Below are positions 12,061 through 31,602 of a stretch of 43,036 nucleotides of DNA, piece after piece. Source of the DNA: Chloroflexota bacterium (lineage in GTDB: Bacteria; Chloroflexota; Dehalococcoidia; Lucifugimonadales; UBA3495); contig JAPPCX010000036.1 of the NCBI GenBank assembly GCA_028875655.1, positions 1 through 43,036 on the forward strand, in the 5' to 3' direction. The notes below the pieces were generated by a model. That model was given only the letters and a program-made list of their open reading frames with translations, was not told where the DNA came from and made no database searches. Made by a program: the position numbers and the translations under genes. The first letter of the stretch is position 1, and each line of letters starts with the position of its first letter.

Positions 12061-12090
12061 CGCCCTAAAACATGCTCATTCAGTCTTCCT

Positions 12091-12607: not shown

Positions 12608-12616
12608 GTCACCGGC

Positions 12617-12692
12617 GCCGATGTAGCTCAGCCGGAAGAGCAGCGGTTTCGTAAACCGCAGGTCAAGGGTTCGAGTCCCTTCATCGGCTCCA
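12617..12692 (+). tRNA. tRNA-Thr (anticodon CGT)
   Basis: Full cloverleaf. The acceptor arms are GCCGATG and CATCGGC, and the D-arm is GCTC...GAGC. The anticodon stem GCGGT/ACCGC encloses the loop TTCGTAA, giving anticodon CGT (reads ACG, Thr). The T-arm is AAGGG-TTCGAGT-CCCTT. The discriminator is T and the CCA end is encoded (12690-12692). Confidence 0.95.
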
Positions 12693-14812: not shown

Positions 14813-16568
14813 CCCGTTGGGTTTCCTGCCCGGCGTGGTGGGCCAGTTCTTCCTGCCCTTCGCTCAGACCGTTTGCGTGTCGCTGGTGGCGTCCACTCTG
14901 GTGGCGCTGACCGCAGTGCCAGCTTTGGCGTCCTGGTTCCTGCGCCAGGGCGACATTTCGACCGATACGGCCCCACGGCAGCAGGACACGCTGCTTCAGA
15001 AGCTATACACGCCAGTGTTGCGGACCGCTTTGCGTTTCCGCCTGTTAACCGCCGCCGCGAGCGTGGCGGTGGTGCTGGCCAGCCTGGCGTTGATTCGCGT
15101 GCTGCCCATCGAACTCTTTTCGCAGGGACCTACGGAAGGCATCCGCATCAATCTCAGCCTGGTCAGCAACCCGTCCGCCGGGAAGTTGTTCCACGAGGTA
15201 CGCGAGGTCGAGCGCTTGCTGGACGGTTTCGTGGTGGAGGGCGTGGTGGAGAGCTACCAGGTGACGCTGGGCGCCAGCAGCCCCGGCCTCGGGAGCGACA
15301 CGTCGTTCGACCGGGCCTGGTTCACCGTGGCGCTATCGGAGGATCCGCCCGCCGACCTGGACGAGCGCATCCGCGAGGCGCTGCCCGACAGCGAGGACTT
15401 GACGGTGCGTGTGTTCGCCGATTCCGGTGGACCGGGCCAAAGCAGCAGCTTTCGGCTCACCGTTACCGGGGCCAATTACGAGGAGGTGCGGGCCGCCACG
15501 TACATGCTCCAGGCCGCCGTCGAGAACGACCCCGGGGTGCGCAACGTGACAACCAACATAACGGACGGATCTGAAGAGTTCACCATCACCATAGATCCCA
15601 ACGAGGCAGGACGGTTCGGGCTGACGACAACCAACGTTGCTAACCAGATGCGCGTCTGGCTGCAGGGCAGCGAGGTGACGGAGTTCGATCTGGGCGGGGA
15701 AACGCTCGACGTTGTTGTTCGGGGCGCGCCTGAGGCGGTGGACGACGCCGACGACATACCCCTGCTGCCGATCTCAGTGGGCGGCGGAGTGATCCCCCTG
15801 GGGGCTATTTCGGATTCCGGCTACACCGTCGGGCCCAGCGCGGTCACCCATTACGATGGGCATCGTTCGGCCACCGTTTCCGGTAGCCTGGTCGGCCGCG
15901 ATGCCGGCGCCACTGGAGAGCGCATCGACGCCATCGTCGCGTCCACGCCGTTGCCGCCGGGGATCAGCGTACGCTCGGGCGGGACGTTCAGCTACATCCA
16001 GGAGGAGTTCAAAAACATTTACGTGGCGATGGCCATCGGCGTTTCCCTGGTGTACCTGGTGATGGTGGCGACCCTGGGTTCGCTGAAAATCCCGTTCATC
16101 ATCGTGTTGAGCATGCCGCTGGCGGTGGTGGGCGCGCTAATCGCGCTGGTTATCACCGACCGCTCGCTGAGCCTGCCGGCGTTGATGGGATTCCTGCTGC
16201 TGGTGGGCATCGTGGTAACCAACGCCATCGTGCTGCTGAGCTTTGTGCAGCAGTTGCGCCAGCGCGGCGAGTCCCCGTATGAAGCGGTCATGCAGGCGGG
16301 GCGAACGCGCCTGCGTCCCATCCTGATGACCGCCTTCACCACCATCCTGGCGCTGATCCCGCTATCGCTGAGCGACTCCGCCGGCCTGGTGGGAGCAGAG
16401 CTGGCCACGGTGGTCATCGGCGGCCTGATCAGTTCCACGTTCCTGACCTTGGTAGCCGTGCCGGTGGTGTACCTGCTTTTTGAGGAATCCATCCCTAACC
16501 TGTGTGCCCAAATCGCGCGGATGATTGGATACCAATTTCGCCGGCGGCCGGCGGATGATCGCGAGTAG
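14784..16568 (+). pseudogene. RND efflux transporter permease, N-terminal ~440 residues missing
   Basis: Encodes roughly 594 residues matching the second part of an AcrB/HAE1-type RND permease, normally about 1030-1070 residues. Homology begins at TIVAVFIPLGFLPGVVGQFF (transmembrane helices 5-6 of the first half). It continues through the central TM7 region (LLTAAASVAVVLASLALI), the second periplasmic loop and the C-terminal bundle, with the hallmark VGIVVTNAIVLLSFV and RLRPILMTAFTTILALIPL. The frame is open further upstream to 14247, but that part is antisense to the kinase and unlike RND proteins. No ribosome-binding site or promoter is present at the breakpoint. It therefore looks like a 5'-truncated gene created by a rearrangement, or by a mis-join in the assembly. 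A 7-bp hairpin overlaps its stop codon. Confidence 0.85.
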
Positions 16569-16577
16569 TAACTCGCG
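16560..16577. terminator. Small hairpin at the RND stop codon
   Basis: CGCGAGT (16560-16566) and ACTCGCG (16571-16577) form a 7-bp stem with loop AGTA spanning the TAG stop. No T-run follows, so a terminator role is weakly supported. Confidence 0.3.
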
Positions 16578-17386
16578 GGGCCATCCACAGATACGTCGGC
16601 CACGGAAGCCGACGGCGTTCCTTCGTCCGATGGTTGGGAATGGGAGATCTACGACCTCAGCATAACGGCACAGGAATTCACCCAGAAGCAGGTGGACCGG
16701 CTGGTTCTGGATTCCCAGGAGGAAGGGAGCCCCGCGATTTTCGCCGGGGGACTGTACCACTGGCTCGCCAGGGACCTGTGGTGGTGCCCCATCCCCCGCC
16801 AGTCTGCGGGCGTTGGGCAGCGCGCCACAGCGGGGTGCGCTGCCACGGGGCCCTTCGGAGGTGATGAAACCCCATGACGACAACCCATCATTCCCCCCGA
16901 CCGCGTAACGCCCGCCTGCTGCCCACATCGCCGTGATTGAGCATTTCGGCTCCTGTAGTTGCATTCGCCACAGGCAGCCTTCTTTGACGAAAGGCCGGGG
17001 CATGGGTTCACAAAGGTGCCCTGATGCTTCCTGGCGGTGGTCGGCGGCGGTGCCAGCGAGTCGGCGAAACGGGTTGATTAAAGACAACGGGTCCTCCCGG
17101 CCTGCTCACCGGTAGTCCGTCAGCGGCGAAAGTGTGTGGATAATGGGTGCCCTTGCCAGCGTCATGCTGGAGCGCATCAGGTAACTGTGCCGCCGATTCA
17201 AACAGCTGGCCATGGGTGCCCACAGGTCCTCGCCAGCCCGTTCCCTGACCCTTCATCCCTCGTCCGACTACCGCCGACGTTTCCCTGCGGTGGATTCGAA
17301 CTTGGGCGCGAGTGTTTTTCAGCAGGACCGTGGACCCGGCAAATTCGCCTCATCAACTCTGAACAGTTACCTGTTTCGGCTTTTTG
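16578..17386. other. Gene-poor region, possible coding relics
   Basis: About 800 bases between the RND remnant and the DUF1800 promoter. One plus-strand frame is open from about 16590 to 16877 and includes a protein-like stretch (WEWEIYDLSITAQEF, then TQKQVDRLVLDSQEEGS). It follows two stops, lacks a convincing start and turns low-complexity, so it may be a decayed gene. The minus-strand frame around 17008-17256 is also open but matches no family I recognise. No insertion-sequence ends were identified. Confidence 0.45.
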
Positions 17387-17415
17387 TTGACATTCGACTT
17401 GGCCAATCCTAATAT
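17387..17415 (+). promoter_or_regulatory. Near-consensus sigma70 promoter of the DUF1800 operon
   Basis: TTGACA (17387-17392), exactly 17 bases, then TAATAT (17410-17415). Transcription would start near 17422, giving a leader of about 49 bases. It is the best promoter match in the window and suggests strong constitutive expression. Confidence 0.8.
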
Positions 17416-17470
17416 GCTGCGTATCTGCGCTTGGCTGAGTGTACTGGGCTCGATAAACGGAGAGGTGGTA

Positions 17471-18886
17471 ATGTCCCACCAAGAAGACATTCGATTGATG
17501 GCCCATTTGATGAGACGGGCAGGCTTCGGTGATACCCGTGAGGAACTGGAGGAGCGTGTCTCCAAAGGCTACGAAGCCGTGGTCGAGGAGCTTCTGTATC
17601 CAGAGCGGCAGCCGGCCATAGACGACGAACTGCTGTACCGGATCTTCCCGGGTTATGAGGGGGCTGGGGCGCTGCCAATAAATCAGGCCAATTGGGTGTT
17701 CCGGATGATCAACACCCAACGTCCTCTGGAAGAGAAGATGGCCCTCTTCTGGCATCAGTTGTTCGCCACCGCCAACTCCAAGGTGGACAATCCACTGGAG
17801 CTGACTCGCCAGATTGCCATCTTCCGTGAATACGGATTGGGTACTTACCGCGACCTCCTGGTAGAGGTCTCAAAGTCGCCAGCCATGATCTTCTGGTTGG
17901 ACAACCAGGGAAATCGTGACGGCGCCATAAATGAAAACTGGGGGCGGGAGCTGTTGGAGCTTTTCTCCCTCGGAGTCGGAAACTACTCAGAGGATGATAT
18001 CAGGGAAGCAGCCAGGGCCTTTACCGGATGGACGATTGCCCCAAAGATTCCCCGTAATCCTTACGGTCGTTTCCATTGGCTATTCGACTACAAACCTGAA
18101 GACCACGATGATCGGGAGAAGACCTTCCTGGGCCATACCGGGAACTTCAATGGCGAAGACATCGTGGACATTATTGCGGATCAACCGGCTACGGCCCGGT
18201 TCCTGGCCCGTCACCTCTACAGATTCTTCGTCGCCGACGAGCCACATGTCGCCAGTTGGAACGTTACACCACCAGTTGACCCTGAAGCCATCGAGTTGTT
18301 GGCGGATGCCTACAATGAATCCCGTGGCGACATCCGGTCTATTTTACGAGTGTTGTTCAACTCAGAGTTCTTCAAGAATGCCCGCTTCGCCCGTGTGAAA
18401 AGCCCGGCTGAATTGATCGTTGGCACTGTGCGTATGGCGGGCGACTATCAAGGCTTCAAGCCAGGACTCAACAACCTGGCGTTGGAGTGCGGTTGGCAGG
18501 GACAGGCGCTGCTCAATCCTCCCAGCGTGGAGGGTTGGCACACCGGCTCAGAATGGATCGACCCCGGCGTTTTGATGCGCCGGGTGAACTTTGCCGCGAG
18601 GATATTTGGAGACATCTCACTACCCGGCGTGCAATCTATCGTCAAACGGGTGTTGGTGAACGTGCATGTGCATGGGGATCATTCCCCCGAGGCGATAGTG
18701 GAAGCTTGTCTCGATGCGATGGGACCGTTGGAAGTCAGTAGGGCCACCCACTCTGAATTGATTGCCCATGCCGAAAAATGTGGCGATCTGGCCTGGAGCA
18801 CCCACGAAGAATTCAGGGCTACAATGCGCAATGTGAGCAGGATCTTGACCTTGATTGCCGCCTCGCGAGAATATCAGTTTGCCTAG
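17471..18886 (+). CDS. DUF1800 domain-containing protein
   Basis: A 471-residue DUF1800 protein. Typical features are the N-terminal LMRRAGFGDTREELE, then FWHQLFATANSKVDN, the family core NWGRELLELFSLGVGNYSED followed by ARAFTGW, and the C-terminal region with LLNPPSVEGWHTG and WIDPGVLMRR. The biochemical role of DUF1800 is not established; it is very often encoded next to DUF1501, as here. ATG 17471 is chosen because AGAGGTGG directly precedes it and the in-frame upstream codons overlap the promoter. I see no signal peptide, whereas many relatives are exported. It is the first gene of a three-gene operon. Confidence 0.92.
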   Translation: MSHQEDIRLMAHLMRRAGFGDTREELEERVSKGYEAVVEELLYPERQPAIDDELLYRIFPGYEGAGALPINQANWVFRMINTQRPLEEKMALFWHQLFATANSKVDNPLELTRQIAIFREYGLGTYRDLLVEVSKSPAMIFWLDNQGNRDGAINENWGRELLELFSLGVGNYSEDDIREAARAFTGWTIAPKIPRNPYGRFHWLFDYKPEDHDDREKTFLGHTGNFNGEDIVDIIADQPATARFLARHLYRFFVADEPHVASWNVTPPVDPEAIELLADAYNESRGDIRSILRVLFNSEFFKNARFARVKSPAELIVGTVRMAGDYQGFKPGLNNLALECGWQGQALLNPPSVEGWHTGSEWIDPGVLMRRVNFAARIFGDISLPGVQSIVKRVLVNVHVHGDHSPEAIVEACLDAMGPLEVSRATHSELIAHAEKCGDLAWSTHEEFRATMRNVSRILTLIAASREYQFA

Positions 18887-18921
18887 GCAAGCGCATACAA
18901 CTGATGTAGAAGGAAATTAAA

Positions 18922-20058
18922 ATGGCATCAACCCATAAAGACCCCGTGCTGGTCGTGCTGGAGCTGACTGGGGCCAACGACTACCTCAATACGATTGTTC
19001 CTTATAGCAATCCTCTGTATTGGGATAACCGGCCCAAGGTCCACATCCCTGAAGACCAATTGCTGCCCATAAATGACCAACTGGCATTCCGGGGCGGTAT
19101 GGAGCCGTTGAAAGAAATCTACGACCAGGGCAACATGGCAATCATTCACGGGATCGGATTTGAAAATTCACCCCGTTCGCACTTTCGCGCCATGGACATC
19201 TGGCATACCTGCGAGCCGGATTCCATCGGGATTGACGGCTGGCTCGCCAAGGTCATCCGGGACTTGGATCCTGGCGGCGAGAACGTGCTGAAGGGAGTTA
19301 ACTTGGGCCAGGGCCTGCCTCGGGCAATGGCCATGAAGGGGGTTCCTGTTACTTCTGTCAACCACCTTCCTTCCTACGGCGTACTCTCATCAAATCCGGG
19401 AATCGCCTCCGAGCAAGAGCGGAACCAGTTGTTGGAGACCTTTGCCCGCATGTACGCTCCCACCATCGGCGCCGGACCGACCATGGAGTATCTGGGACAG
19501 GCAGGACGGGATGCATTGCGAGGAGCCGACATCATTCGGGTTGCTCCCGAAACCTATTCTTCAAGCGTAGAGTACGCTAATAATGCCATCGCCAGGCGCT
19601 TCAGAGACGTGGCCCAAGTGCATCTGGCCGGCCTGGGCGCCCAGGTCTTTTACACCTCCCACGGGCCCTTCGACACCCACTATGACCAGCTGGGACCACA
19701 TGAAAAACTTTGGACGGAAATTTCCGTCGCCATACGCGATTTCTTCGACGACCTGCGTGAGCACGACGCCTCAAACGAGGTGGTTGTTATGTTGTTCAGC
19801 GAGTTTGGGCGCCGCGTCCGCGATAATGGCACCGGCACCGACCACGGAGCGGCTGGGGTAGCGTTCGTCATTGGCGACCGGGTGTATGGTGGAATGTACG
19901 GGACCTATCCCTCGCTGAAACCGGGGGATCTCACTCAAGGAGACCTGGCGCCCAACTATGATTTCCGCGGCTTCTACTCCACGTTGGCGGAAAAGTGGCT
20001 GGGACTCGACCCGGTCCCTATCGTCGGTGGACACTTCGAGCAAATGTCCTTCGTGTAG
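18922..20058 (+). CDS. DUF1501 domain-containing protein
   Basis: A 378-residue DUF1501 protein, a family related to the alkaline-phosphatase/sulfatase fold. Visible signatures are VLVVLELTGANDYLNTIVPY at the N-terminus, PRSHFRAMDIWHT in the middle, HGPFDTHYDQ and the C-terminal VVVMLFSEFGRRVRDNG followed by TDHG; the conserved Asp/His residues are candidate metal ligands. ATG 18922 follows AGAAGGAAAT. Most DUF1501 proteins start with a Tat signal (twin arginine); this one does not, so it may be cytoplasmic or exported together with a partner. It is the second gene of the operon, 35 bases after DUF1800. Function not established. Confidence 0.92.
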   Translation: MASTHKDPVLVVLELTGANDYLNTIVPYSNPLYWDNRPKVHIPEDQLLPINDQLAFRGGMEPLKEIYDQGNMAIIHGIGFENSPRSHFRAMDIWHTCEPDSIGIDGWLAKVIRDLDPGGENVLKGVNLGQGLPRAMAMKGVPVTSVNHLPSYGVLSSNPGIASEQERNQLLETFARMYAPTIGAGPTMEYLGQAGRDALRGADIIRVAPETYSSSVEYANNAIARRFRDVAQVHLAGLGAQVFYTSHGPFDTHYDQLGPHEKLWTEISVAIRDFFDDLREHDASNEVVVMLFSEFGRRVRDNGTGTDHGAAGVAFVIGDRVYGGMYGTYPSLKPGDLTQGDLAPNYDFRGFYSTLAEKWLGLDPVPIVGGHFEQMSFV

Positions 20059-20093
20059 CTTCAGGACCCAAAATAGTTCGCAGGAGAGGGGAT

Positions 20094-21092
20094 ATGCTGA
20101 CCACCGTCGCCGCCGGCCGGGTGTATGACTACAGCTACTGCATAGGCATGTACAGTCAGGACGGCAGGGGATTTTGGGCTCCCCAAGATTTCGTCCTGGG
20201 ACCCAACGGTCGAATTTATGTGTTGAGCCGCGGTGTGGAACAATTGGGTCAGCGTGTCACCAAGATCAACTTTGATCACGATTTTCAAGGACAGTTCGGC
20301 TCCGTCGGCGAGGGCGACGGGGGCTTCGTTTGGCCCCGGTCAATTGATTTGGACCGCCACGGCCGAGTGTTCCTTTCGGACGAGTATCTCAACCGGGTAA
20401 CCATTTACAGTGAAGAAGGTAGTTATCGGTATCACTGGGGCAGGCCCGGCAGCGAAGACGGGGAGCTAAACGGACCGTCGGGAATTGCTTTCGACTCCCA
20501 GGGAACCGTTTGGGTGGTGGACAGCTTGAATCACCGGGTGCAGAGTTTCAGCCAGATCGGTGAGTTTCAGTCCAAATTCGGGCAGCAAGGTGACGGTGAC
20601 GGAGATCTGGAGATGCCATGGGGCATCTGCATCGACCGTCAGGACAACATCTACGTCGCGGATTGGGGAAATAACCGGGTGCAAAAATTCGCCCCTACTG
20701 GAGAGTTGCTCGTTAAGTTCGAAGGCTCCAGCGCCGGGGTGGGTTCGCTCAAAGGGCCATCCGGTGTAGCTGTGGACTCAGATGGAGATGTATATGTAAC
20801 CGACTGGGGGAACCACCGAGTCCAGATCTACGCCCCCGACGGCCAATATATTACGGCGCTGGTCGGTGACGCTCAAGAGCCTTCGCCATGGGCCCAGACC
20901 TACATCGATGCCAATCCGGATATCATCAAAGCCAGGCGGCGGACAGATCTGGAGCCTGAATGGCGGTTCCGGCGGCCAGTGGCTGTCAACGTTGACGCAG
21001 ACGACCGGATCGTAGTTTTGGAGTCCTACCATCACCGGCTTCAAATCTACAACAAGCTGAAGGATTACGAGGAACCCTCAATAAACTTGTAG
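20094..21092 (+). CDS. NHL-repeat beta-propeller protein
   Basis: A 332-residue protein of tandem NHL repeats forming a predicted six-bladed beta-propeller. At least five repeats are readable: WPRSIDLDRHGRVFLSDE with NRVTIY; GPSGIAFDSQGTVWVVDS with HRVQSF; MPWGICIDRQDNIYVADWG with NRVQKF; GPSGVAVDSDGDVYVTDWG with HRVQIY; RPVAVNVDADDRIVVLES with HRLQIY. Such propellers mostly bind proteins, peptides or carbohydrates. The start at ATG 20094 follows CAGGAGAGGGG; the frame is open upstream only as DUF1501 shadow. There is no signal peptide. It ends the DUF1800-DUF1501-NHL operon (gap of 35 bases), so it probably works with those two proteins. Confidence 0.92.
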   Translation: MLTTVAAGRVYDYSYCIGMYSQDGRGFWAPQDFVLGPNGRIYVLSRGVEQLGQRVTKINFDHDFQGQFGSVGEGDGGFVWPRSIDLDRHGRVFLSDEYLNRVTIYSEEGSYRYHWGRPGSEDGELNGPSGIAFDSQGTVWVVDSLNHRVQSFSQIGEFQSKFGQQGDGDGDLEMPWGICIDRQDNIYVADWGNNRVQKFAPTGELLVKFEGSSAGVGSLKGPSGVAVDSDGDVYVTDWGNHRVQIYAPDGQYITALVGDAQEPSPWAQTYIDANPDIIKARRRTDLEPEWRFRRPVAVNVDADDRIVVLESYHHRLQIYNKLKDYEEPSINL

Positions 21093-21261
21093 ACGCCTGC
21101 CCGTCTCCAAATATTTGCGCGTCGCCGGTCACTTTCCCAGGCCGGTCCACCTAAAGGGGAATCGAACGAGCCTCGGGCGGGGCCACTTGCAAAGAGCAGA
21201 GAGAAGGGCCCCGTTGAGAAAGTCTGGACACTTGCGGCGGATCGACCGTAGTGCTTGGCGG

Positions 21262-21678
21262 CTACACCCTTCCTTGAATTGCCGCTCGTAAGTCGGGGTT
21301 CAGCGATTCGCGAGTTACGCCGTCAGCGTCCGATGCTGCGAGCACCGCCACCAGGCGCCGCGCGGCATCGGTCATGTTGCTTGCCAATTCGTTGCACAGG
21401 TGGCTGTCCCGTTGTGCCGGAGTAGGTGGTGGTTCAGGGGCCGGCTGGCGGCGGGCCGTTGCACTGGCGCCGTTCTCCCGCACTCTCTGGTAGCGGGACG
21501 GCATCTGTGCGGGTGTTTCCGAGGGGGTAAGGGCGTCCGGCTCCGCTTCCCTGCTTGCCGATACAGCGGCAGCGGCCGATAATTCTTGCGCGCCGCCCAC
21601 TCCGGCGATGCGCCGCAGGGCGGCGGTGGACCCCTCCGGGTCTCCCTCAATGCTGATGGTTACTGAAATAGACGGCAT
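21262..21678 (-). CDS. Hypothetical protein
   Basis: 138 residues, not recognised. It starts with a short beta-like segment (MPSISVTISIEGDPEG), has an Ala-rich and then Pro-rich middle with low complexity, and ends with a compact helical stretch (MTDAARRLVAVLAASDADGV, then TRESL) that resembles a small winged-helix-like module. ATG 21678 has GGAG about seven bases upstream on the minus strand; the frame continues further upstream without a better start. It lies between the NHL operon and the integrase relic and may belong to the same mobile segment. Its reality as a gene is moderately supported. Confidence 0.5.
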   Translation of the reverse strand: MPSISVTISIEGDPEGSTAALRRIAGVGGAQELSAAAAVSASREAEPDALTPSETPAQMPSRYQRVRENGASATARRQPAPEPPPTPAQRDSHLCNELASNMTDAARRLVAVLAASDADGVTRESLNPDLRAAIQGRV

Positions 21679-21885
21679 ACCAGGCTCCGACGATTGGTGG
21701 GTGAAGCCTACCTGCGCCTGGCGGAAATTGAGCTGCTGATTGCCGAAAAGCTCGCGGCCCGATAAAACCGAGGTCGCGGGCACGGCATCGCCTACGACGC
21801 CGTGGTGCGCGCGGAAACCGAAGTCGGAACCTACACGAAACCGAACCCCGGCCCGTCAGTTGACGACAAATTTGACCGCAGGTAA

Positions 21886-22297
21886 ACGCTGGCTAATCAT
21901 CGGCTCGCGGCCACGGAATGCCCTCTGGGGCGAGACGCTGCCGGGAAGCGAATTCGGAAGACGGAGACGGTTCGGGGCAAGGAAGCCGAAGCCGACCGTC
22001 GGCTCCGTCAAATACTCTCAGACTTGAATCGAGGTGTGTCCCCGCCCAAGACCAAATACAAGGTCGGCGAGTGGCTGGACAAGCTGGCTCCGCTTCAAAT
22101 CCAGGAACTGTACGCGGAACTGCTGGAAGGCGGCATGGCGCCCACGGGAGTGCAGGCAGTCCACAACATGCTCAGTGGGGCAATCAAGCACGCTGCTGGC
22201 GCAGGCGGAAGCCGAGGAGCACTGGCTGTGGGCGTTGCTCCACCTGATTGTTTACACCGGGAAGCGGCGCGGAGAGGCGCTGGCCCTATTTTTGCCG
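21886..22297 (+). pseudogene. Decayed tyrosine recombinase/phage integrase
   Basis: Remains of a site-specific integrase. In one frame, PLGRDAAGKRIRKTETVRGK (AP2-like arm-binding region) is followed by EADRRLRQILSDLNRG, then KVGEWLDKL and LQIQELYAELLEGG (core-binding SAM-like domain) to GAIKHA. After about 22195 the homology continues in the next frame with EEHWLWALLHLIVYTGKRRG and EALAL, the box I region with its catalytic Arg. The linker between the two domains, the rest of the catalytic domain and the real N-terminus are gone. It ends right beside the 3' end of the Rieske gene, so decay and truncation happened at the boundary of the sterol-like cassette. Confidence 0.75.
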
Positions 22298-22312
22298 TTA
22301 CTGCAATCCCAA

Positions 22313-23353
22313 TTATCGAGCCTGATCATCGGGATAGAATTGCGCGCAGTATGCGCGGTAGGCCATGATGTCCACGTCGGCGGCGCAGAGGCGTGGGCGT
22401 GGCGAGTACTTTTTCCGGCTCCAGATCACCATATCCTGCTCAACGTCCCGCCTTTGCTGCAGCGCCATGAATCTGTTCAGTATGGGCGCGCGCAGCCGGG
22501 TCGGAAGAAATCGCAGCCCGGCAATTGGCCGCTTCGGTTTCCGTATCTCCCGCGTCTGTCCGACGAGGGACAGGTCGATGAGCGTGCCGTCAACCGGCGT
22601 CGCCAGCACCCACAGGCGCATGTCCGTGCCTATGGACCTTTCACGAATCTCCACGAATGAATAGCCCAGCCCGAAGACCTGCGTTCTGGCGGACACGTCG
22701 AACGTGAGGGTGACCATTCCGGCAATCTTCCGCGTTCTTTTGAAGTCGAAACAGTTCTCGAGAAAGTGACCCTCCACCGACAGCTCATCAACGCGGCTGA
22801 CGTTGTCGTAGCCGTGAACGTATTGCAGATGGGCCAGATCCACCGAGTTCTCGGCGACCTCCTGGGGATGGCCGGGGAAGCGCAGTGTCTGGACGTGCAA
22901 GTCGCACCAGCCGGCCTGGTCCAGGTTGTCGGCGGGCAGATTCCATCGCGGCGCCCGCCCGTCAATGCCCCACCAGGCGAAGATCAGCCCCAGGATCTCC
23001 TGTGTCTCGAATACCTGCAGCCTCGCCGTCCTCGGCGCGGGCGCAAAGGGAGTGGCCACGCACCGCCCGCTGACATCGTACTCGAACCCATGGAAGGGGC
23101 AGATCAGGCGACCCCCGCAGACTCGTCCCCCGGCATCCCGTCCCAGGTCGGCGCCCAGGTGCGGGCAAGAAGCTCTGGCGACGCAGATGCGTTCGTTCTC
23201 ATCACACCAGGCGATGATTTGTTCGCCCATCCACGTCTTTTGCATCAGCTCGGCTTTCAGAACAGCCTGACGGCTGGCAACGAAATACCAACCTTCGGGG
23301 AACGGAGAACTCAGCTCCAGGTATGTGGGTTGACTGCTTCGGGTGGACATCAT
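22313..23353 (-). CDS. Rieske [2Fe-2S] non-heme iron oxygenase
   Basis: A 346-residue Rieske oxygenase alpha-subunit-like enzyme, predicted to activate O2 for hydroxylation, demethylation or desaturation. The Rieske cluster ligands are Cys63-x-His65 (ASCPHLGADL) and Cys85-x2-His88 (LICPFHGFEY). The mononuclear iron site is ENSVDLAHLQYVHG, with Asp172, His175 and His180 in the D-x2-H-x4-H pattern. Its size and single-subunit look resemble the steroid-acting group (KshA, cholesterol 7-desaturase, SdmA-like C-4 demethylase) more than aromatic-ring dioxygenases; this is inference. It lies 70 bases downstream of the sterol methyltransferase homologue on the same strand, so they are probably co-transcribed. 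ATG 23353 or 23350 may start it. The reductase partner is not in the window. Confidence 0.9.
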   Translation of the reverse strand: MMSTRSSQPTYLELSSPFPEGWYFVASRQAVLKAELMQKTWMGEQIIAWCDENERICVARASCPHLGADLGRDAGGRVCGGRLICPFHGFEYDVSGRCVATPFAPAPRTARLQVFETQEILGLIFAWWGIDGRAPRWNLPADNLDQAGWCDLHVQTLRFPGHPQEVAENSVDLAHLQYVHGYDNVSRVDELSVEGHFLENCFDFKRTRKIAGMVTLTFDVSARTQVFGLGYSFVEIRERSIGTDMRLWVLATPVDGTLIDLSLVGQTREIRKPKRPIAGLRFLPTRLRAPILNRFMALQQRRDVEQDMVIWSRKKYSPRPRLCAADVDIMAYRAYCAQFYPDDQAR

Positions 23354-23423: not shown

Positions 23424-24470
23424 CTATCGACCTGTGGACGGCTTGCGAACCAGGAAACAGTACAACGGCGTGAATATCCCGGCCTTGCCGCCGGCGACAT
23501 AAGCGTTGGCGGTTTCGTTAAGCAGTCGAACGACTTCCGCAGAGCCTTTCGGGAACAGCCCCAGCGTTCCGGCCAGCCGGGACGCCCCGATGAATGCCTT
23601 TCGCCCCAGCGGAGTCCGGTAAAAGGCGTTGACGACGGTCCTGCCCCGGGTTTCCATGGGCTGATACCAGGGCGTCGTGCCGTCGTCCGACGCCACGCCC
23701 AGGTCCGCCCCTTCGACGACCTGAAACCCCACTGCTTCCAGCGTCCGGTTGACCTCCGCAGTGGTTGCAATATCCTTCAGCACTATGCCCTGCATCAGGT
23801 CTCGCTTGATGGCCTGATGACGGCTGTCATCGGTGTCAAACTTCTCCGTCATGCACATTTCCTGGCCCCAAAAGAGAGATCCGGGTTTCAGCACGCGGTA
23901 AATCTCGGCGAATGCGCCCGCCTTGTCCGGCGCGTGGCACGTTGATTCGATGGCGTATCCGCGGTCAAAGGTGTCGTCAGCGATGGCGCCCATGTCCATG
24001 AAGCTGCACGCCAGGTAATCAACCATGTGATCCAGTCCCGCCTCGGCGTTCAGCGCTTTCGCCTTGTCCAACTGCATTTCATTGTTGTTGACGCCCACGA
24101 CCCTGACCCCGGCCTCCCGGACGACACGGCGCATCGGGCCGCCGATCCCGCACCCGACGTCAATCACAGTCATGCCCTGCCGCAACTCCAGCTTGGCCAT
24201 CATCAGCCGCTGGTGGCGAATCTTGGACTCCTCCAGGCTCTCCTGGGGTGATAGCGGCGCGAAGTGCAAAGACTCGCCCCAACTGAACACCATGAATTCG
24301 CCGCAAAGGTCGTAGTATTCCCTGACGGTTTCAGAGTGGTTGTAACCCGCCCCGTCAGCATTCGGCCCGGATATTCGGTCGCTCCATCCGTTGAACCGTT
24401 GCACTCGGTGGGCGACGTCCCGCCCGCGATACGCGGCCTTCAGCCCGTTTGAAAGTTTGCGGAGTTGCAC
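23424..24470 (-). CDS. Sterol C-24 methyltransferase-like protein (SMT/ERG6 family)
   Basis: 348 residues strongly resembling sterol 24-C-methyltransferases, which methylate the sterol side chain with SAM. Conserved SMT regions in order: SWGESLHFAP (residues 63-72, replacing the usual YxYGWGxSFHF), SAM motif VIDVGCGIGGPMRR (102-115) with VVGVNNNEMQ, YAIESTCHAP (172-181), and EMCMTEKFD (204-212). The C-terminal sterol-MT domain has the diagnostic TPWYQPM, FYRTPLGRKAF, then LGLFPKGSAEV, VAGGKAGIFTP and a final VRKP. Length matches ERG6-type enzymes. It starts at GTG 24470 with AGAGGGA just upstream, and has its own promoter at 24511-24540. Bacterial SMTs are rare. It could methylate sterols made elsewhere in the genome or taken up. 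No cyclase is nearby. Confidence 0.9.
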   Translation of the reverse strand: MQLRKLSNGLKAAYRGRDVAHRVQRFNGWSDRISGPNADGAGYNHSETVREYYDLCGEFMVFSWGESLHFAPLSPQESLEESKIRHQRLMMAKLELRQGMTVIDVGCGIGGPMRRVVREAGVRVVGVNNNEMQLDKAKALNAEAGLDHMVDYLACSFMDMGAIADDTFDRGYAIESTCHAPDKAGAFAEIYRVLKPGSLFWGQEMCMTEKFDTDDSRHQAIKRDLMQGIVLKDIATTAEVNRTLEAVGFQVVEGADLGVASDDGTTPWYQPMETRGRTVVNAFYRTPLGRKAFIGASRLAGTLGLFPKGSAEVVRLLNETANAYVAGGKAGIFTPLYCFLVRKPSTGR

Positions 24471-24621: not shown

Positions 24622-24687
24622 GGTTGTTATAGAAAAGCTACGACTTTGGTTGTCCGGCGGCCACTTCGATGGCCAGGAGAAATGCCG

Positions 24688-26721
24688 ATGGTTGCGTCTG
24701 CGGGCGATTCGGCTACGCTTTCGCTAAGCTTGCCCGAAGAACTGCTCCTAATGTTGCTCAACGAAGAGACGGGCTACTTCCATCAGGTGCCCGGGTGGGC
24801 CTTGAACTGCGCAGTCATCGGCGCCGTGCTGGCGGAGCTCTCGCTGCTGTCCCGCATCGACACCGACCTCGAATTCCTGTTCGTGGTGGACGCTACCCCT
24901 ACCGGCGACCCCATCCTCGACCATGTCCTGCAGGAAATCGCTGACGAAACGGAGGGGCGCAACGCCCAGTACTGGGTCGAACGGCTGGCGCCCAACGCCG
25001 AGGACATCATCGACTCCATTCTCGAACGCCTGGTTGATGGGAAAGTCCTGGTGCGCCACGATGGCGACTACTGGACATTGTCCCCCACGGCTTGGCGGGC
25101 GGGCGTTCTGGGCGGCCCTGCCGATGGCTACGCCCATCAGTTCGTGAAAACCCGCATCAGTGATTTTATCTTCAACAACATCATCCCCGAGCCGCGGGAC
25201 ATCATCATTATCTCGCTGGTCAACTGCTGCGATGTGCTGCGCTTCATGTACCTGCTCGACGACGACGCGACCACGCGCATCCGCTTCATCTGCAACATGG
25301 ACTTGATTGGCCGCTCCATCGCCGACGCGGTCACCGACAGCATCGTCTCCCCCGGGCTCCGCCGTTCCGCCCTGGTTCGGGAAATACCTACCGTATCGCT
25401 GCGCCGTCTTGCGCTCAATCGCCACCTGCGCAACGGCAACCTGCCGGCGTTATTCGCCGACCTGGCCAAAGAGTACGGTCCGGTCTTCCAAGTTCGCCCA
25501 CCCTTTGCCAAACGGCTGGTTTTCCTGGCTGGGCCGGAGACCAACCGCTGGGCCCATCGCAACGGGCGGATGTACCTGCGCGCCCGCGATTACTTTGAAG
25601 GCTTTGAGAAACTCTACGGCGCCTCCGGCGTTTTGCCTTCACTGGACGGCGGCGACCACTTCCGCCTGCGCAAGTCCCTTCAGCCGGCCTATTCTCGCGA
25701 GCGGCTGTCTGAGCAGTTGGACCAACTCTATTCTTACGTCCGCACCCACATGGCCAACTGGGCCGTCGGAGACACTTTCACCGCAACCGATATGTCTCGG
25801 TACCTGGTCAACGCTCAACTCTCGCCCCTATTCATCAGCATTGAATCGCAGGACATCCTCGGCGACCTGATGAAATACAAGGAGCGCGCCCTCAGCACTC
25901 ACGTCGCCCGGGTGATGCCCAGGTTCATGCTCAATACCCCGTCGATGCGACGCCGTACGAAGGGAGTGGACGTTCTGATGGACCGGGTCCGACGCAGTCA
26001 TACGCCTGCTCAGCGCGCCGGACGCCCACGGGACCTGGCCGACGACCTGCTGAGCCTGAACGTCAGCGACCCCCAGCTGGTTCCGGAGTCCAATCTGCGC
26101 TTCGCCTTTTCCGCCGCCCTCATCGCCAGCGTGTACCTGGGCGACGCTCTCAGCTTTGCGGTGTACGCCATGGCTTCACAGCCCGAACTCTACGAGCAAA
26201 TCCGCAGCGAAGCCGACGCGCTCTTTGACGGCGGCGACCCGAATGGCGAGGACTTCAACCCTTCCACAATCGACGTTACTCATCGCTTCCTCATGGAATG
26301 TCTGCGAATGCACCCCATTGTTCCCATGTCCCTCCGGAACGTGATGAACTCCTGCGAAGTTGAGGGCCATTTTCTTCCGGTGGGGGAACGGATTACCATT
26401 GCCCAGACCGCCGCCCACTACATGGATGACGTGTTTCCCGACCCCTTCAAGTTTGACATTGACCGCTACCGGCCGCCGCGCAATGAGCACCTCAGCCCCG
26501 GCTACGCCCCTTACGGAGTAGGCACGCACATCTGCCTCGGCCAGCGCTGGATGGAGTTGCAACTGGCCATCAACGTGCTGATGATTGCCCACCACTTCAC
26601 CCTTGAAGTGCATCCCACCAAGTACCGCGAAAAGATTAAATACAGCCCCTTGCCGTCGATGAAGCCCAGCAAGAAGGTAAAGTTCCGCATCACCGAGCAG
26701 AGGCGCGAAATACCAGCCTGA
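24688..26721 (+). CDS. GPP34 (GOLPH3-like)-cytochrome P450 fusion protein
   Basis: 677 residues joining two families. Residues about 10-215 are a GPP34/GOLPH3-like domain: LSLPEELLLMLLNEETGYF, ALNCAVIGAVLAELSLLSRI, DATPTGDPILDHVLQEIA, AQYWVERLAP and PEPRDIIIISLVNCCDVLRF. From about residue 245 a cytochrome P450 follows: a Glu-x2-Arg motif at 537-540 (ECLRMHP) and the heme loop YGVGTHICLGQRW with axial Cys616 (first aromatic Tyr instead of Phe). In the I-helix (ALIASVYLGDALSF, about 477-490) the usual acid-Thr pair is missing, so O2 activation may differ. GPP34 domains bind membrane phosphoinositides in eukaryotes, so this one may dock the P450 at a membrane holding a lipid substrate. ATG 24688 has AGGAG eight bases upstream. 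It is divergent from the SMT gene and convergent with the MMPL transporter (6-base gap). Confidence 0.9.
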   Translation: MVASAGDSATLSLSLPEELLLMLLNEETGYFHQVPGWALNCAVIGAVLAELSLLSRIDTDLEFLFVVDATPTGDPILDHVLQEIADETEGRNAQYWVERLAPNAEDIIDSILERLVDGKVLVRHDGDYWTLSPTAWRAGVLGGPADGYAHQFVKTRISDFIFNNIIPEPRDIIIISLVNCCDVLRFMYLLDDDATTRIRFICNMDLIGRSIADAVTDSIVSPGLRRSALVREIPTVSLRRLALNRHLRNGNLPALFADLAKEYGPVFQVRPPFAKRLVFLAGPETNRWAHRNGRMYLRARDYFEGFEKLYGASGVLPSLDGGDHFRLRKSLQPAYSRERLSEQLDQLYSYVRTHMANWAVGDTFTATDMSRYLVNAQLSPLFISIESQDILGDLMKYKERALSTHVARVMPRFMLNTPSMRRRTKGVDVLMDRVRRSHTPAQRAGRPRDLADDLLSLNVSDPQLVPESNLRFAFSAALIASVYLGDALSFAVYAMASQPELYEQIRSEADALFDGGDPNGEDFNPSTIDVTHRFLMECLRMHPIVPMSLRNVMNSCEVEGHFLPVGERITIAQTAAHYMDDVFPDPFKFDIDRYRPPRNEHLSPGYAPYGVGTHICLGQRWMELQLAINVLMIAHHFTLEVHPTKYREKIKYSPLPSMKPSKKVKFRITEQRREIPA

Positions 26722-26727: not shown

Positions 26728-29202
26728 TTATCCTTGCCGCTCGTCGCGCCGCTGAATGTCGTCAATCGCCACGTCCAGCTCGCTCCACATTCGCTCTACC
26801 ATGGAACGCAACCGCACGTTCTGGTATGCGCCCCACACCACCATCGCCGGCAGTACCACCAGCACCGACACTACCAACGAATAGACGATGGTAATGGTCG
26901 CCGTAATTCCGAACTGCTGAGACGCTAGCAGGGGCGAGGCGATTAACACTCCGAATCCGAACGCCGTCGTCAGCGCGGAGCCCAACAGGGCCGAACCGGT
27001 GGTGGTCAGGGTCTGAATCGCCGCTTGCTCCGGGTTGCGCGTGCGGGTGTACTCCTCCCGGTAGCGATGAATCACGTGGATGGTGTAGTCAACCCCGATG
27101 CCAATGGACAGCGCGGTAATGATTGATGTGATCAGCGAGTAGGGGATGCCCAGCAGCGCCATGGTGCCCAGCACCCAGATGAGGACGAGCACGATTGGAC
27201 CCACCGCAATCAACCCAAACGCCGGCTGGCGCAGCGTCATCCAGAAAAAGATGCTCAAAATGCCCAGGGCTATGGCGACGGTGGCGCTGATTGCCTCAGT
27301 CTGCCGGTCCGTGATGGCGTCCGTGACGGTAACGGCGATGATTGACTCCGAAGTCGCCGTGATGTCCTCGTCATCGCCAAACCAGAGGGCTTCGATGTCC
27401 CCCTGTATCTCCTTCGCCAGCGCGGCGTCGCCCGAATAAGCCGGGAACTGGATCAGCATCGTATCAAGGCCCGATGGGTCGTTAACCAGGAGACGCGCGG
27501 CCTCGGGGTCTTCCGCCTCAATCCGATCCACCAGCTCCTGCATCAGCGCCGGGTCAAGCTCCACCCCTGCCGAGGCTTCCCGGAGCAGCGCGGCGAGTTC
27601 GGGGTCGTATTTGTCGCCGGGCCTTCCGCTGTCGTTGGTCCAATCGTGGACCAGCAAGTCGTACGACGCCAGGATCGGCCCCGACGCCGCGCCTGGGCGG
27701 CGCTCTTCGTCCTGGAAGGCGGCGGTGAGGTCCCGAAGGTTGAGCAGCGTGCGGGTCTCTGTTACCTCGGCCTTCACCAATACGCTGGCCATCTCCGTCG
27801 AACCGCCCACGGCCGCGTCGAGGGTGTTCATATCTGCAATCACGCTCCCGCCCCTGGGGAGGATGTCGCGGATGCTGAATTCGGACTTCAGGCCGGTGGC
27901 GGCGTATCCCAGGCCAATGGTTATCAGCAGCACTGCGACCAGGCAGGGCGCCGGCCAACGGGTAACCCACCTGCCAAGCAGCTCCGCCACTCGGGGAATG
28001 CCGGGCAGTGCGTTGGCGATTGGGCGGGCGGGCCGCAGAGTCCCCCGGGACTCTCGCCGTCGGTCGATAACCGTGCGCCCGGCCGGAATCAGAGTCAGCA
28101 TTACTATCAGGCTCATGCCCACTCCGAGCCCGGCAACAACTCCGAAGTCGCCAATCACCCCGATGGGCGAGAATAAGCCCGCCAGCAGGCTGACAATCGT
28201 CGTGACGGCGGCCAGGGTCACGGGAATGGAGACTTCGCGAAAGCCGACGCGGACGGCCCGTAACACCGACTCCCCGAGGACGCGCTGCTCGCGGTAGTGA
28301 GAGATCGCCTGGATTGCGTAGTCCACGGTCAGGCTGATAATGATGACGGGCACCATGGTAGTGAGCGAACTGGGCGGCCCGATGAGGCCCAGCGCGTTCG
28401 GCCCAAGCCAGCCCTCTGCTCCCACAACCCAGACTATCGCAAAGATAAGTCCCAACAGCGTCAGCAACATGTCCGAGATGGCGCGCGTGAAGAGCAGGAG
28501 CAAACCTGCGATCAGCAGCAGCGCCAACCCCAGTAGCGGGCCTAACCCCGACTCCGTAGCCTGCTTGTACTCGTCCTCAATGACCACCGGCGACAGGCTG
28601 CTCACGCCCAGTGACCCGTCTTGCCCCGTTGCCAGCTCGTTGATCCTGCGCTCGGCGTCCGCAATCTGTTCGTCACCCGTGTCGCGCAGGCGGATGACGG
28701 CGATTGCCACCGGCGCGCCATCCACGTCCGTTCCGGTCATCGCCGCCAGCGCCGCCTTGATTTCCGGAGGGCTGGGCGCGGCCTCGATTTGCTCCGGGGT
28801 GACGGACTCGAAGCTATCCACCTGGAGCAGGGCTTTGGCCAGCAGGGAGGGAGCGGCGACGGGATTGGTAGGGGCCAGCAGGCCACTCACGGCAGGATCA
28901 GCGGTAACGCTATTGACCAGGCTGTCCATTTGGGAGAGGCCGTCCGGCGTGAGCGCCTCCCCACGGAAGACGAGCGTTACCACGCGAACTTCGCCCGAGT
29001 CTCCGAACAGCTCATCAATCTCTTGGGTCACGTTGGCGATGGGGTGTCCGGGCGGAAGAAACGCCACGTCGGCCCCTTCGGTTGGCGGCGCCCGCAGCGT
29101 CGCCCCGTAACCCAGCAAAACGGTTACAACGAATAGAGCGATGAGCGTGATATACGGGCGGGCCGTGATTAGCCGGCTCATCGTGTCGAGTATCTTGGTC
29201 AT
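26728..29202 (-). CDS. MMPL/RND-superfamily transporter (HpnN/NPC1-like architecture)
   Basis: About 824 residues with two similar halves. Each half has one membrane helix (YITLIALFVVTVLLGYGAT; APCLVAVLLITIGLGYAAT), a large extracytoplasmic loop and a five-helix MMPL bundle. The first bundle has MVPVIIISLTVDYAIQAISH and the second IITALSIGIGVDYTIHVIHR; the GxxxDY pattern is the proton-relay region of the RND/MMPL superfamily. This is the layout of hopanoid transporter HpnN, mycobacterial MmpL and eukaryotic NPC1/Patched, whose five-helix units are sterol-sensing domains. Start ATG 29202 (or 29181) has no clear ribosome-binding site; the frame runs further upstream across tRNA-Leu, which cannot be coding. 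Its position beside the SMT, Rieske and P450 genes suggests lipid or sterol transport across the envelope; the cargo is inferred. Confidence 0.9.
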   Translation of the reverse strand: MTKILDTMSRLITARPYITLIALFVVTVLLGYGATLRAPPTEGADVAFLPPGHPIANVTQEIDELFGDSGEVRVVTLVFRGEALTPDGLSQMDSLVNSVTADPAVSGLLAPTNPVAAPSLLAKALLQVDSFESVTPEQIEAAPSPPEIKAALAAMTGTDVDGAPVAIAVIRLRDTGDEQIADAERRINELATGQDGSLGVSSLSPVVIEDEYKQATESGLGPLLGLALLLIAGLLLLFTRAISDMLLTLLGLIFAIVWVVGAEGWLGPNALGLIGPPSSLTTMVPVIIISLTVDYAIQAISHYREQRVLGESVLRAVRVGFREVSIPVTLAAVTTIVSLLAGLFSPIGVIGDFGVVAGLGVGMSLIVMLTLIPAGRTVIDRRRESRGTLRPARPIANALPGIPRVAELLGRWVTRWPAPCLVAVLLITIGLGYAATGLKSEFSIRDILPRGGSVIADMNTLDAAVGGSTEMASVLVKAEVTETRTLLNLRDLTAAFQDEERRPGAASGPILASYDLLVHDWTNDSGRPGDKYDPELAALLREASAGVELDPALMQELVDRIEAEDPEAARLLVNDPSGLDTMLIQFPAYSGDAALAKEIQGDIEALWFGDDEDITATSESIIAVTVTDAITDRQTEAISATVAIALGILSIFFWMTLRQPAFGLIAVGPIVLVLIWVLGTMALLGIPYSLITSIITALSIGIGVDYTIHVIHRYREEYTRTRNPEQAAIQTLTTTGSALLGSALTTAFGFGVLIASPLLASQQFGITATITIVYSLVVSVLVVLPAMVVWGAYQNVRLRSMVERMWSELDVAIDDIQRRDERQG

Positions 29203-29263
29203 GGAGATACAAAGAACCGGTGTAGCTGCTCGTTCCCAACGCGGCGGCAGCGCGTCGAGAGGT

Positions 29264-29350
29264 TGGTGCCGAAGGTCAGACTCGAACTGACACGGGATAT
29301 TATCCCACCGGTTTTTGAGACCGGCGCGTCTACCATTCCGCCACTTCGGC
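29264..29350 (-). tRNA. tRNA-Leu (anticodon CAA)
   Basis: Minus-strand class II tRNA. The acceptor arms are GCCGAAG and CTTCGGC. The anticodon stem CCGGT/ACCGG encloses the loop CTCAAAA, anticodon CAA (reads TTG, Leu). The long variable arm (TGGGATAATATCCC) is typical of Leu. The T-loop is TTCGAGT and CCA is encoded (29264-29266). A TATACT -10-like box lies at 29366-29361. Its 3' end faces the MMPL gene, a usual attachment position for integrative elements. Confidence 0.95.
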
Positions 29351-29462
29351 TTCCGAACCAAGTATAGCACGCTTGCGCGGGCGGGCAGCCCCGTGTAGCA
29401 TTGATGTACGAAGCTAGCGACGCTTGTGTGAAAGCACTGATGCACTTCCCGGATGGCATGAT

Positions 29463-29918
29463 ATGGCAAGCATTAAGGACCGGCTGGAAGAGGATATCCG
29501 CAATACCATGCGCGCGCGAAATCGGGAGCGCCTGGATACCCTGCGTTTTCTGAAGAGCCAGATTCAGTTGGCGGAGAAGAACGCCTTGGCCGAGCTGGAC
29601 GATACCGGCGTCACCGACGTAATCGCCAAGCAGGCGAAGGACCGCCGAGAGAGCATCGAGATGTTCGGGCAGGGTGGTCGTTCGGACTTGGTCGAGAAGG
29701 AACAGGCCGCGCTCGCCGTGCTGCAGGAATACATGCCGGAGCAGATGGACGCCGTAGCCATTGAGGAACTGGCCCGCCAGGTCATCGCCGACGTGGGCGC
29801 CACCGGGCCGGGTGATCGCGGCAAGGTGATGGGCCGCATCATGCCCCAGGTGCGGGGCAAGGCCGATGGCAGCGAGGTTAACGCTACGGTATCCCGGCTG
29901 TTGGAATCCCTGGGTTAG
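29463..29918 (+). CDS. GatB/YqeY domain-containing protein
   Basis: A 151-residue YqeY-type protein, the free-standing version of the helical C-terminal tail of amidotransferase subunit GatB. Conserved stretches are IKDRLEEDIRNTMRARNRER, TLRFLKSQIQLAEKNA, the central AKQAKDRRESIEMF and LQEYMPEQMD, and the C-terminal GKVMGRIMPQVRGKADGSEV with NATVSRLLESL. In GatB this tail contacts tRNA; the separate protein is proposed to bind tRNA or support amidotransferases, without a proven reaction. ATG 29463 is chosen as the first codon of the conserved block; no strong ribosome-binding site is seen. Eight bases separate it from purQ, so they are likely in one operon with purQ, the EamA transporter and purL. 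Confidence 0.9.
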   Translation: MASIKDRLEEDIRNTMRARNRERLDTLRFLKSQIQLAEKNALAELDDTGVTDVIAKQAKDRRESIEMFGQGGRSDLVEKEQAALAVLQEYMPEQMDAVAIEELARQVIADVGATGPGDRGKVMGRIMPQVRGKADGSEVNATVSRLLESLG

Positions 29919-29926: not shown

Positions 29927-30655
29927 ATGCGCTTTGGCATCCTGGTTTTTCCCGGCACTTGGAGCGATACCGATTGCCATCACGCCGTCTGCGGAGTACT
30001 CGGGCAGCGCGCCGGTTATGTCTGGCACAAGGACAGCGACCTGGCGGGTTACGACGCGATCATCGTCCCCGGCGGCTTCTCCTATGGGGATTACCTCCGC
30101 GCCGGGGCAATTGCAAAGTTCTCTCCCGTGATGAGCGCGGTTCGCGATTTTGCGCAATCCGGCGGCCCGGTTATCGGAATTTGCAACGGCTTTCAAATTC
30201 TCTGCGAAGCCGGTCTGCTTCCGGGCGCTCTACGACGCAACGGGCACCTGGAATATCGCTGCCAGTGGACCCACCTGCGCGCCGAGCGTGCCGACACGAT
30301 CTTTACCAGCCGGTGCGACCAGCGCCGACCGCTGGCAATCCCGGTGTCCCATGGTGAGGGGAGCTACTTTGCCCACCCCGTCACCATCGCCGAACTCGAA
30401 GCCGAAGGTAGGGTCCTGTTCCGGTATTGCGAACCCGATGGGCGCGTCACCGACGCCGCCAACCCCAACGGCTCCGTGGCGAATATCGCCGGCATCATCA
30501 ACGAATCGGGCAATGTTCTGGGCATGATGCCGCACCCGGAACGCAGTTGTGAGTTGCTGTTGGGGTCCGATGACGGGAACCTCATTTTCGGTTCCATGGC
30601 GGACGCCGTGGCCGCGGCGACGGCCGGCGATCTTCAGGCCGACCCCGTTAGGTAA
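29927..30655 (+). CDS. purQ: Phosphoribosylformylglycinamidine synthase subunit PurQ
   Basis: The glutaminase subunit of FGAM synthase, which hydrolyses glutamine to supply ammonia to PurL in the fourth step of purine synthesis. It is a class I glutamine amidotransferase of 242 residues. Diagnostic motifs: FGILVFPGTWSDTD at the N-terminus, VPGGFSYGDYLRAGA (oxyanion region), the nucleophilic Cys in PVIGICNGFQILCEAGLLPG, the SHGEGSYF stretch and the catalytic His/Glu in MMPHPERSCE. It is separated by only two bases from the EamA transporter and is followed by purL, so the purine genes form one operon. PurS, the third subunit used with small-type PurL, is not in the window. Confidence 0.95.
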   Translation: MRFGILVFPGTWSDTDCHHAVCGVLGQRAGYVWHKDSDLAGYDAIIVPGGFSYGDYLRAGAIAKFSPVMSAVRDFAQSGGPVIGICNGFQILCEAGLLPGALRRNGHLEYRCQWTHLRAERADTIFTSRCDQRRPLAIPVSHGEGSYFAHPVTIAELEAEGRVLFRYCEPDGRVTDAANPNGSVANIAGIINESGNVLGMMPHPERSCELLLGSDDGNLIFGSMADAVAAATAGDLQADPVR

Positions 30656-30657
30656 CG

Positions 30658-31581
30658 ATGCTGCTTTCCATCGGCCTCGCGTGCATTGCGGTGTTGGGGT
30701 TTGGGAGTTCCGCCGTTTTGGCGCGGTTGGGCATGACTGGGCAGGGCGGGATGCGCCCCATGCCCGGCGCTCTGGTCTCCCTGGTGGCTTCCACGTTGCT
30801 CGCCGGCGCGCTGGCGTTGATCTTTGAATTTCGCGCGGTGGTCACTCTCCCTGCCATTGCCATGATCTGGTTGCTGGCGAACGGTATCCTCACTTATCTT
30901 GGCGGCCGATCCCAGCAGTACATTGCGATCAACCTGATCGGGGCCTCCAGGGTTACCCCAATCGTGGGCAGCGCGGCGCTGTTTTCCGCGTTGTACGCCG
31001 TCACCCTTACCCGTCTGGGCGTCTCGGGGTTCAATGAGCAGTTGAACCCGCTGCTGGGGTTGGGAACCGTTATAGTGGTGGTCGGCCTGGCGTTGACGGG
31101 AGGCAATTTCCTCAGGCAGAGTTGGGGTAGCGACTGGGAATCCGTAGCGGGTTACGGCCTGGCGATATTGGCGGCGGCTTGCTACGGCGCGGCCACTCTC
31201 AGCGGCCGGGTACTGAGCATCCAGTTCGGCTCTCCATTAATCATGGCGGCGGGCAGCATGTTTTTCGCAACGCTGTTATTATCTCCTTTGTTTGGGCGGG
31301 AGGCGGTTCAGAAATCCGCGAGTACCGGTTGGGCGCCTTTCTTCATCTTTCTGGCCGGATTCGCGGCCGCCTGCGCTGTCATGTCGCTCTATTTTGCGGT
31401 TACCCGCGACGGTTCCAACATTTTAGTCATCGCGCCCATCGTGTCGTGCAACCCGCTGGTTACCCTTTTCCTGGCGCGCGTATTCCTGCGCCACAGCGAG
31501 TCCGTTACCAAAGAATTGGTGATGGGAACACTGATGGCGGTGGGCGGCGTGGCGCTGGTAGTTGTGGGCGGCCTGATCTGA
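30658..31581 (+). CDS. EamA/DMT-family membrane transporter
   Basis: A 307-residue integral membrane protein of the drug/metabolite transporter superfamily with about ten predicted helices in two EamA halves. The first half runs from LLSIGLACIAVLGFGSSAVL to GLGTVIVVVGLALTGGNF, and the second from GYGLAILAAACYGAATLSGR to the terminal MGTLMAVGGVALVVVGGLI. DMT proteins export or import amino acids, nucleosides, nucleotide sugars or other metabolites. ATG 30658 lies two bases after the purQ stop, with GTTAGGTAA overlapping the end of purQ as a weak ribosome-binding site. Its placement between purQ and purL raises the possibility of a purine-related solute, but no substrate can be read from the sequence. 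Confidence 0.88.
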   Translation: MLLSIGLACIAVLGFGSSAVLARLGMTGQGGMRPMPGALVSLVASTLLAGALALIFEFRAVVTLPAIAMIWLLANGILTYLGGRSQQYIAINLIGASRVTPIVGSAALFSALYAVTLTRLGVSGFNEQLNPLLGLGTVIVVVGLALTGGNFLRQSWGSDWESVAGYGLAILAAACYGAATLSGRVLSIQFGSPLIMAAGSMFFATLLLSPLFGREAVQKSASTGWAPFFIFLAGFAAACAVMSLYFAVTRDGSNILVIAPIVSCNPLVTLFLARVFLRHSESVTKELVMGTLMAVGGVALVVVGGLI

Positions 31582-31602
31582 CGTAAAGAAGAGTGCGAAG
31601 CC

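Follow-up and report, generated by a model that had tools for sequence, protein, structure and literature searches.

What would a sterol methyltransferase (SMT) do in a bacterium that appears unable to make sterols? This question is raised by a gene in the window, the whole stretch of 43,036 nucleotides of Chloroflexota DNA analysed here. As working bacterial SMTs have already been published (PMC10070321; PMC9531527), an SMT in a bacterium is not new as a headline. What looks new is the cassette in which this gene lies, and its occurrence in genomes that lack a sterol pathway: in the open-licence literature searched, no description was found of the combination of this SMT type (SMT-A), a GPP34-P450 fusion, a Rieske oxygenase and an MMPL transporter, or of how often it occurs in genomes that have no oxidosqualene cyclase (OSC). 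The four genes are arranged as follows.

22313-23353, minus strand: Rieske [2Fe-2S] oxygenase with KshA_C (3-ketosteroid 9alpha-hydroxylase-type), 346 aa (Pfam KshA_C 5e-24)
23424-24470, minus strand: SMT-A, sterol 24-C-methyltransferase-like, 348 aa, class I SAM methyltransferase with Sterol_MT_C (Pfam, motif table, tree, AlphaFold)
24646-26721, plus strand: GPP34 domain fused to cytochrome P450, 691 aa (Pfam GPP34 2.7e-28, p450 4.7e-35)
26728-29469, minus strand: MMPL/RND transporter with sterol-sensing domain (Pfam MMPL 1.9e-46, Sterol-sensing 8.4e-11)

The SMT-A frame runs on the minus strand from a GTG start at 24470 to a stop at 23424, and translation of the plus strand over the same interval is interrupted by stops. 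Pfam matches CMAS (1.4e-18) and Methyltransf_11 (1.1e-16) in the protein and Sterol_MT_C (PF08498) at its C terminus (2.9e-16; 59.7 bits against a cutoff of 21.7), in agreement with the first-pass annotation, which had claimed a SAM domain plus a sterol-specific C-terminal domain and cited the motifs SWGESLHF, TPWYQPM, RTPLGRKAF and VAGGKAGIFTP, all of them found in the protein. A domain search of the whole window genome gave this gene as the sole Sterol_MT_C match, and the same search gave none in 14 control genomes. The dN/dS values of SMT-A against four relatives are 0.14-0.21, indicating purifying selection. In the AlphaFold model (pLDDT 86.8, pTM 0.88), the predicted fold resembles those of class I SAM methyltransferases, including the alkene C-methyltransferases geranyl diphosphate methyltransferase and CmaA1; no solved SMT structure with the sterol C-terminal domain was present among the sequence or fold search matches. 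A generic methyltransferase was also considered and rejected: methyltransferases from the same genome align with SMT-A over the SAM domain only, at about 25-33% identity, and lie outside the group in the tree.

A profile search of species genomes yielded 299 relatives, and the best 80 of these 299, which are 65-86% identical to the window protein, were counted as SMT-A loci. They are labelled as Chloroflexota, Dadabacteria, Acidimicrobiia, Alpha- and Gammaproteobacteria, Nitrospirota, Nitrospinota, Gemmatimonadota, Acidobacteriota and Truepera, spanning about nine phyla, with some bins possibly carrying wrong labels. Many of the records are tied by their names to sponge metagenomes. MPMZ (bin75), MPMM, MPNN, MPND and MPMJ are symbiont genomes of Aplysina aerophoba (PMC5649159), and the record names COS, RHO, IRC and APA fit, as judged by matching labels, the sponges Coscinoderma, Rhopaloeides, Ircinia and Aplysina of PMC8163846. 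The relatives thus suggest that the window genome also comes from a sponge.

In a quick tree, SMT-A forms one group (SH-aLRT 92), and a second group contains the canonical bacterial SMTs (SMT-B) together with yeast ERG6 and Arabidopsis SMT1 and SMT2. Both groups together are set apart from generic methyltransferases with an SH-aLRT of 93, on long branches that make deep placements in the tree unsure. The first-pass annotation had assigned the gene to the SMT family rather than to tocopherol or other small-molecule methyltransferases and had proposed a phylogeny against bacterial and eukaryotic SMTs; the assignment is backed by the C-terminal domain, by signature regions I-IV, the first of them in altered form, and by this tree, from which tocopherol methyltransferases were absent. 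Identities are about 35% to yeast ERG6, 39% to Arabidopsis SMT1 and 33% to SMT2. SMT-A is, as judged by sequence, a clade of its own, only about 35-39% identical to its nearest characterised relatives among those compared, and the window gene is a real SMT-family gene of this distinct clade. The first-pass annotation had overlooked this separate clade, the cassette shared among sponge symbionts and the lack of sterol-making enzymes in the genome. With support 88, the window protein and two Chloroflexota relatives are placed beside Dadabacteria sequences and apart from the sequences of the same-class genomes G218 and G388, pointing to transfer between phyla.

The eukaryotic enzymes and SMT-A have in common their length, Sterol_MT_C, regions II and III, and most of region IV. 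Region II (consensus LDVGCGVGGP) reads VIDVGCGIGGP at residues 102-112 of SMT-A, and regions III and IV (consensus YAIEATCHAP and KPGxxFxxYEWxMTD) are present as YAIESTCHAPDK and LKPGSLFWGQEMCMTE, with YEW of region IV replaced by QEM throughout the clade in the motif table. Region I differs more, reading YEYGWGSSFHF in Erg6 and MVFGWGESLHF in SMT-A: clade-wide, Tyr81, Glu82 and Phe89 of Erg6 are replaced by Met, Val and Leu, and Tyr83 by Phe, while the core W-G-x-S-x-H-F is retained. This region, Tyr81-Phe91 of Erg6, is rich in aromatic residues and is considered to guide the cation steps and the product range (PMC5711494); positions 81 and 91 of the ERG6 sequence used are Tyr and Phe, matching the literature numbering. 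Altered products would therefore be expected of SMT-A, and the low identity to yeast ERG6 and Arabidopsis SMT1, together with the loss of Tyr81 across the clade, suggests that its product or even its substrate may differ. The first-pass annotation was right that the first signature is altered, but the Ser of SWGESLHF on which it relied is nearly private to the window gene. Residue 63 is Ser in only 5 of the 87 clade members having a residue there, and Gly in 80; the change that holds clade-wide is Met-Val-Phe...Leu.

The Rieske gene adjoins SMT-A on the same strand, and the solved structures that best match its product are KshA oxygenases (2.6e-21). An identity as SdmA (4beta-methylsterol monooxygenase) was rejected for this gene at 28.4 bits against the NF052579 cutoff of 600. 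The GPP34-P450 gene is divergent from SMT-A, and its P450 domain best matches CYP51 among solved structures (3e-21); KshA and CYP51 are thus the closest solved structures by sequence to these two partners, in matches that are part-length or weak. Unlike CYP51, the window P450 is fused to GPP34 and lacks A/G-x-x-T, the usual motif of the P450 I helix (IASVYLGDALS at this site); its haem Cys is kept (YGVGTHICLGQ). GPP34 in eukaryotes is a Golgi phosphoinositide-binding protein. A second GPP34-P450 fusion, 33% identical to the first, is encoded elsewhere in the window genome (G000:C91:289-2307, L188) beside an acyltransferase-like membrane protein. Translation of the MMPL transporter probably begins at an internal Met around residue 90, the homologues being about 823 aa long.

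Locus L085, labelled Dehalococcoidia, has ArgG, luciferase-like, Rieske and SMT genes in common with the window genome at 84-99% identity, in keeping with a very probable place of this Chloroflexota genome in Dehalococcoidia, a class that includes compact single-contig genomes of 1.4-1.9 Mb. In the window, a luciferase-like gene and the Rieske gene stand about 10 kb apart, with RND transporter, DUF1800, DUF1501 and NHL genes between them (12007-22313), and in L085 the distance is about 0.7 kb, pointing to an insertion or deletion beside the window cassette. At 29927-33861 of the window, purQ and purL have an EamA-type transporter gene between them.

In the available flanks of the 80 SMT-A loci, the GPP34-P450 fusion was found in 54, the Rieske gene in 46 and the MMPL gene in 28, the last in Chloroflexota only (28 of the 39 Chloroflexota loci). 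Thirteen of 16 Chloroflexota SMT-A loci have both the fusion and the transporter within the 20 kb covered, and 12 of these 13 have the Rieske gene too. Other recurrent neighbours over the 80 loci are an amine-oxidase-type FAD protein (29), another sterol-sensing-domain MMPL protein (12) and ERG4/ERG24 reductases (11); the cassette partners were not found beside SMT-A at the Acidimicrobiia loci. Among 400 sampled Chloroflexota genomes, all 23 with SMT-A also carry the fusion, 4 carry the fusion without SMT-A and 373 carry neither, a co-occurrence whose Fisher value ignores relatedness. In genomes G042, G218 and G388, the fusion and SMT-A lie on separate contigs, so the co-occurrence is not mere linkage. 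Moreover, two Nitrospira loci (L134 and L136) have SMT-A, SMT-B, the Rieske gene, the GPP34-P450 fusion, an ERG4/24 reductase and a fusion of squalene epoxidase (SE) to OSC as neighbours, and this adjacency of close relatives to the SE-OSC fusion ties the SMT-A family to sterols. These patterns suggest that a conserved sterol-type cassette with SMT-A is common to symbionts of many phyla.

We consider it reasonably probable that SMT-A is an SMT-family C-methyltransferase acting on the sterol side chain, and that the cassette remodels sterols acquired from the host or from neighbours. The sterol substrate, C-24 as its site, the external source and the roles of the partner genes are what we infer for this route. 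SMT-A would use SAM to methylate the side chain at its C-24 double bond, and the MMPL protein with its sterol-sensing domain would serve in sterol uptake or movement. The CYP51-like P450 fused to GPP34 and the KshA-type Rieske oxygenase would oxidise the sterol, which may then be reduced by an ERG4/ERG24-type enzyme encoded elsewhere. A homologue of this reductase type, which adjoins SMT-A in other symbionts, is present in the window genome (G000:C6; L187:9147-10361, minus strand).

The same oxygenases could instead belong to sterol breakdown, in which the KshA-type Rieske protein, the P450 and luciferase-like monooxygenases would open host sterols for carbon and the methyltransferase would have a side role. 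In its favour, the Rieske protein is closest to the steroid-ring-opening oxygenase KshA, and two luciferase-like monooxygenase genes are present within 17 kb in the window. We nevertheless judge this explanation unlikely, since neither luciferase-like gene is a conserved neighbour (one recurs at 2 of the 80 loci, once at 26% identity, and the other at 1 of 80) and no typical steroid-catabolism gene family was recognised among the recurrent neighbours of SMT-A. Side-chain alkylation, moreover, makes sterols harder to degrade.

The cyclase content of the genomes bears on the substrate. The window genome (G000; 3.45 Mb in 123 contigs, 97% complete) has one cyclase and no second, a squalene-hopene cyclase (SHC) with the SHC motif DIDDTAE, which rules out its reading as an OSC; the gene adjoins two genes of squalene-synthase type and one for an HpnE-like amine oxidase. 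Such neighbours would suit an enzyme whose substrate is squalene, a hopanoid or some other polyprenoid of the cell's own making, as would the altered region I and the likeness of the predicted structure to alkene C-methyltransferases generally, cyclopropane enzymes among them. A non-sterol substrate is still quite improbable in our estimation, given that 27 of 49 further SMT-A genomes have no cyclase whatever, that the partner genes are steroid-type, and that SMT-A adjoins OSC, ERG4/24 and canonical SMT genes where a sterol pathway exists. The other genomes of the 49 comprise 9 with OSC (702-738 bits, all DCTAE) and 13 with an SHC-like cyclase only (225-291 bits).

Squalene epoxidase was not found in the window genome; of 22 Chloroflexota genomes encoding an SMT homologue, only G218 and G388 have it, fused to OSC, and the other 20 lack it. 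SE-OSC (DCTAE) fusions in one frame of about 1116-1158 aa occur at L074 and L073 (the Dehalococcoidia G218 and G388), L168-L176 and L134:2973-6578, with the labels Chloroflexota, Nitrospirota, Acidimicrobiia and Gammaproteobacteria; the frame of L175 is broken by one stop. A literature search found no earlier report of such a fusion. That the cells make their own sterol, with OSC and squalene epoxidase merely missing from the assembly, is highly improbable. In its favour, SE-OSC fusions accompany SMT-A in 9 of the 49 genomes and in G218 and G388, steroid gene clusters have been reported from Dehalococcoidia of Ircinia (Kelly et al., PMC9531527), and a missing OSC in any single MAG is weak evidence because MAGs are incomplete. 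Against it, OSC was not found in 40 of the 49, and a repeated gap at the same genes is unlikely in genomes mostly more than 90% complete.

Acquisition of sterols from outside, followed by their remodelling, is the explanation we retain. SMT-A appears from its gene context to belong to sterol metabolism, yet to be kept mostly by cells apparently unable to make sterols. As the window genome has no detected squalene epoxidase and its only cyclase is an SHC, the sponge host or neighbours that make sterols would most likely be the source, and such uptake is the simplest account.

Brown et al. (2023) reported that bacterial SMTs, including those of symbionts, methylate sterols in vitro, with three of them making 24-isopropyl side chains, and that 2 of 10 tested sponge-symbiont SMTs were inactive on desmosterol and 24-methylenecholesterol (PMC10070321). 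A chlamydial SMT from a genome without other sterol genes was also active in vitro in that study, a precedent for an SMT in such a setting. Like SMT-A, those SMTs belong to the same family and derive from sponge metagenomes, and some are clustered with sdmA-type Rieske genes; two bacterial clades are described there. In contrast, P450 and Rieske genes are not so named in the main text, and a GPP34-P450/MMPL cassette is not mentioned in it. Kelly et al. (2022) described steroid gene clusters (CSGs) and found SMT1/ERG6 to be enriched in Ircinia symbionts of ten phyla, from which horizontal transfer was inferred (PMC9531527). SMT-A resembles this system in its spread among sponge symbionts of many phyla and in the horizontal transfer inferred. 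The CSG core, however, is ERG24-CYP51-ERG7, for de novo synthesis, whereas the window genome has no ERG7 and its cassette core consists of SMT-A, the GPP34-P450 fusion, the Rieske gene and the MMPL gene.

More broadly, we tentatively propose that a horizontally shared sterol-editing cassette, carrying an SMT clade whose active site has been remodelled, may allow sponge symbionts of many phyla, most of them without sterol synthesis, to take up, alkylate and oxidise host sterols, and that host and bacteria may together produce part of the unusual sterol diversity of sponges. Steranes alkylated at C-24 are taken as evidence of eukaryotes, and 24-isopropylcholestane as evidence of early sponges. 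The point made in the first-pass annotation, that bacterial sources matter because C-24 alkylated sterols serve as eukaryote biomarkers, is an argument already in the literature (PMC10070321). The cassette names partner enzymes that can be tested jointly, namely the GPP34-P450, the KshA-like Rieske oxygenase and the sterol-sensing transporter. Should a large proportion of sponge symbionts prove to have a dedicated sterol-editing cassette without sterol synthesis, sponge sterol profiles would be products of the holobiont, and counting SMT copies in sponge genomes or seeking OSC in bacteria would both miss a source.
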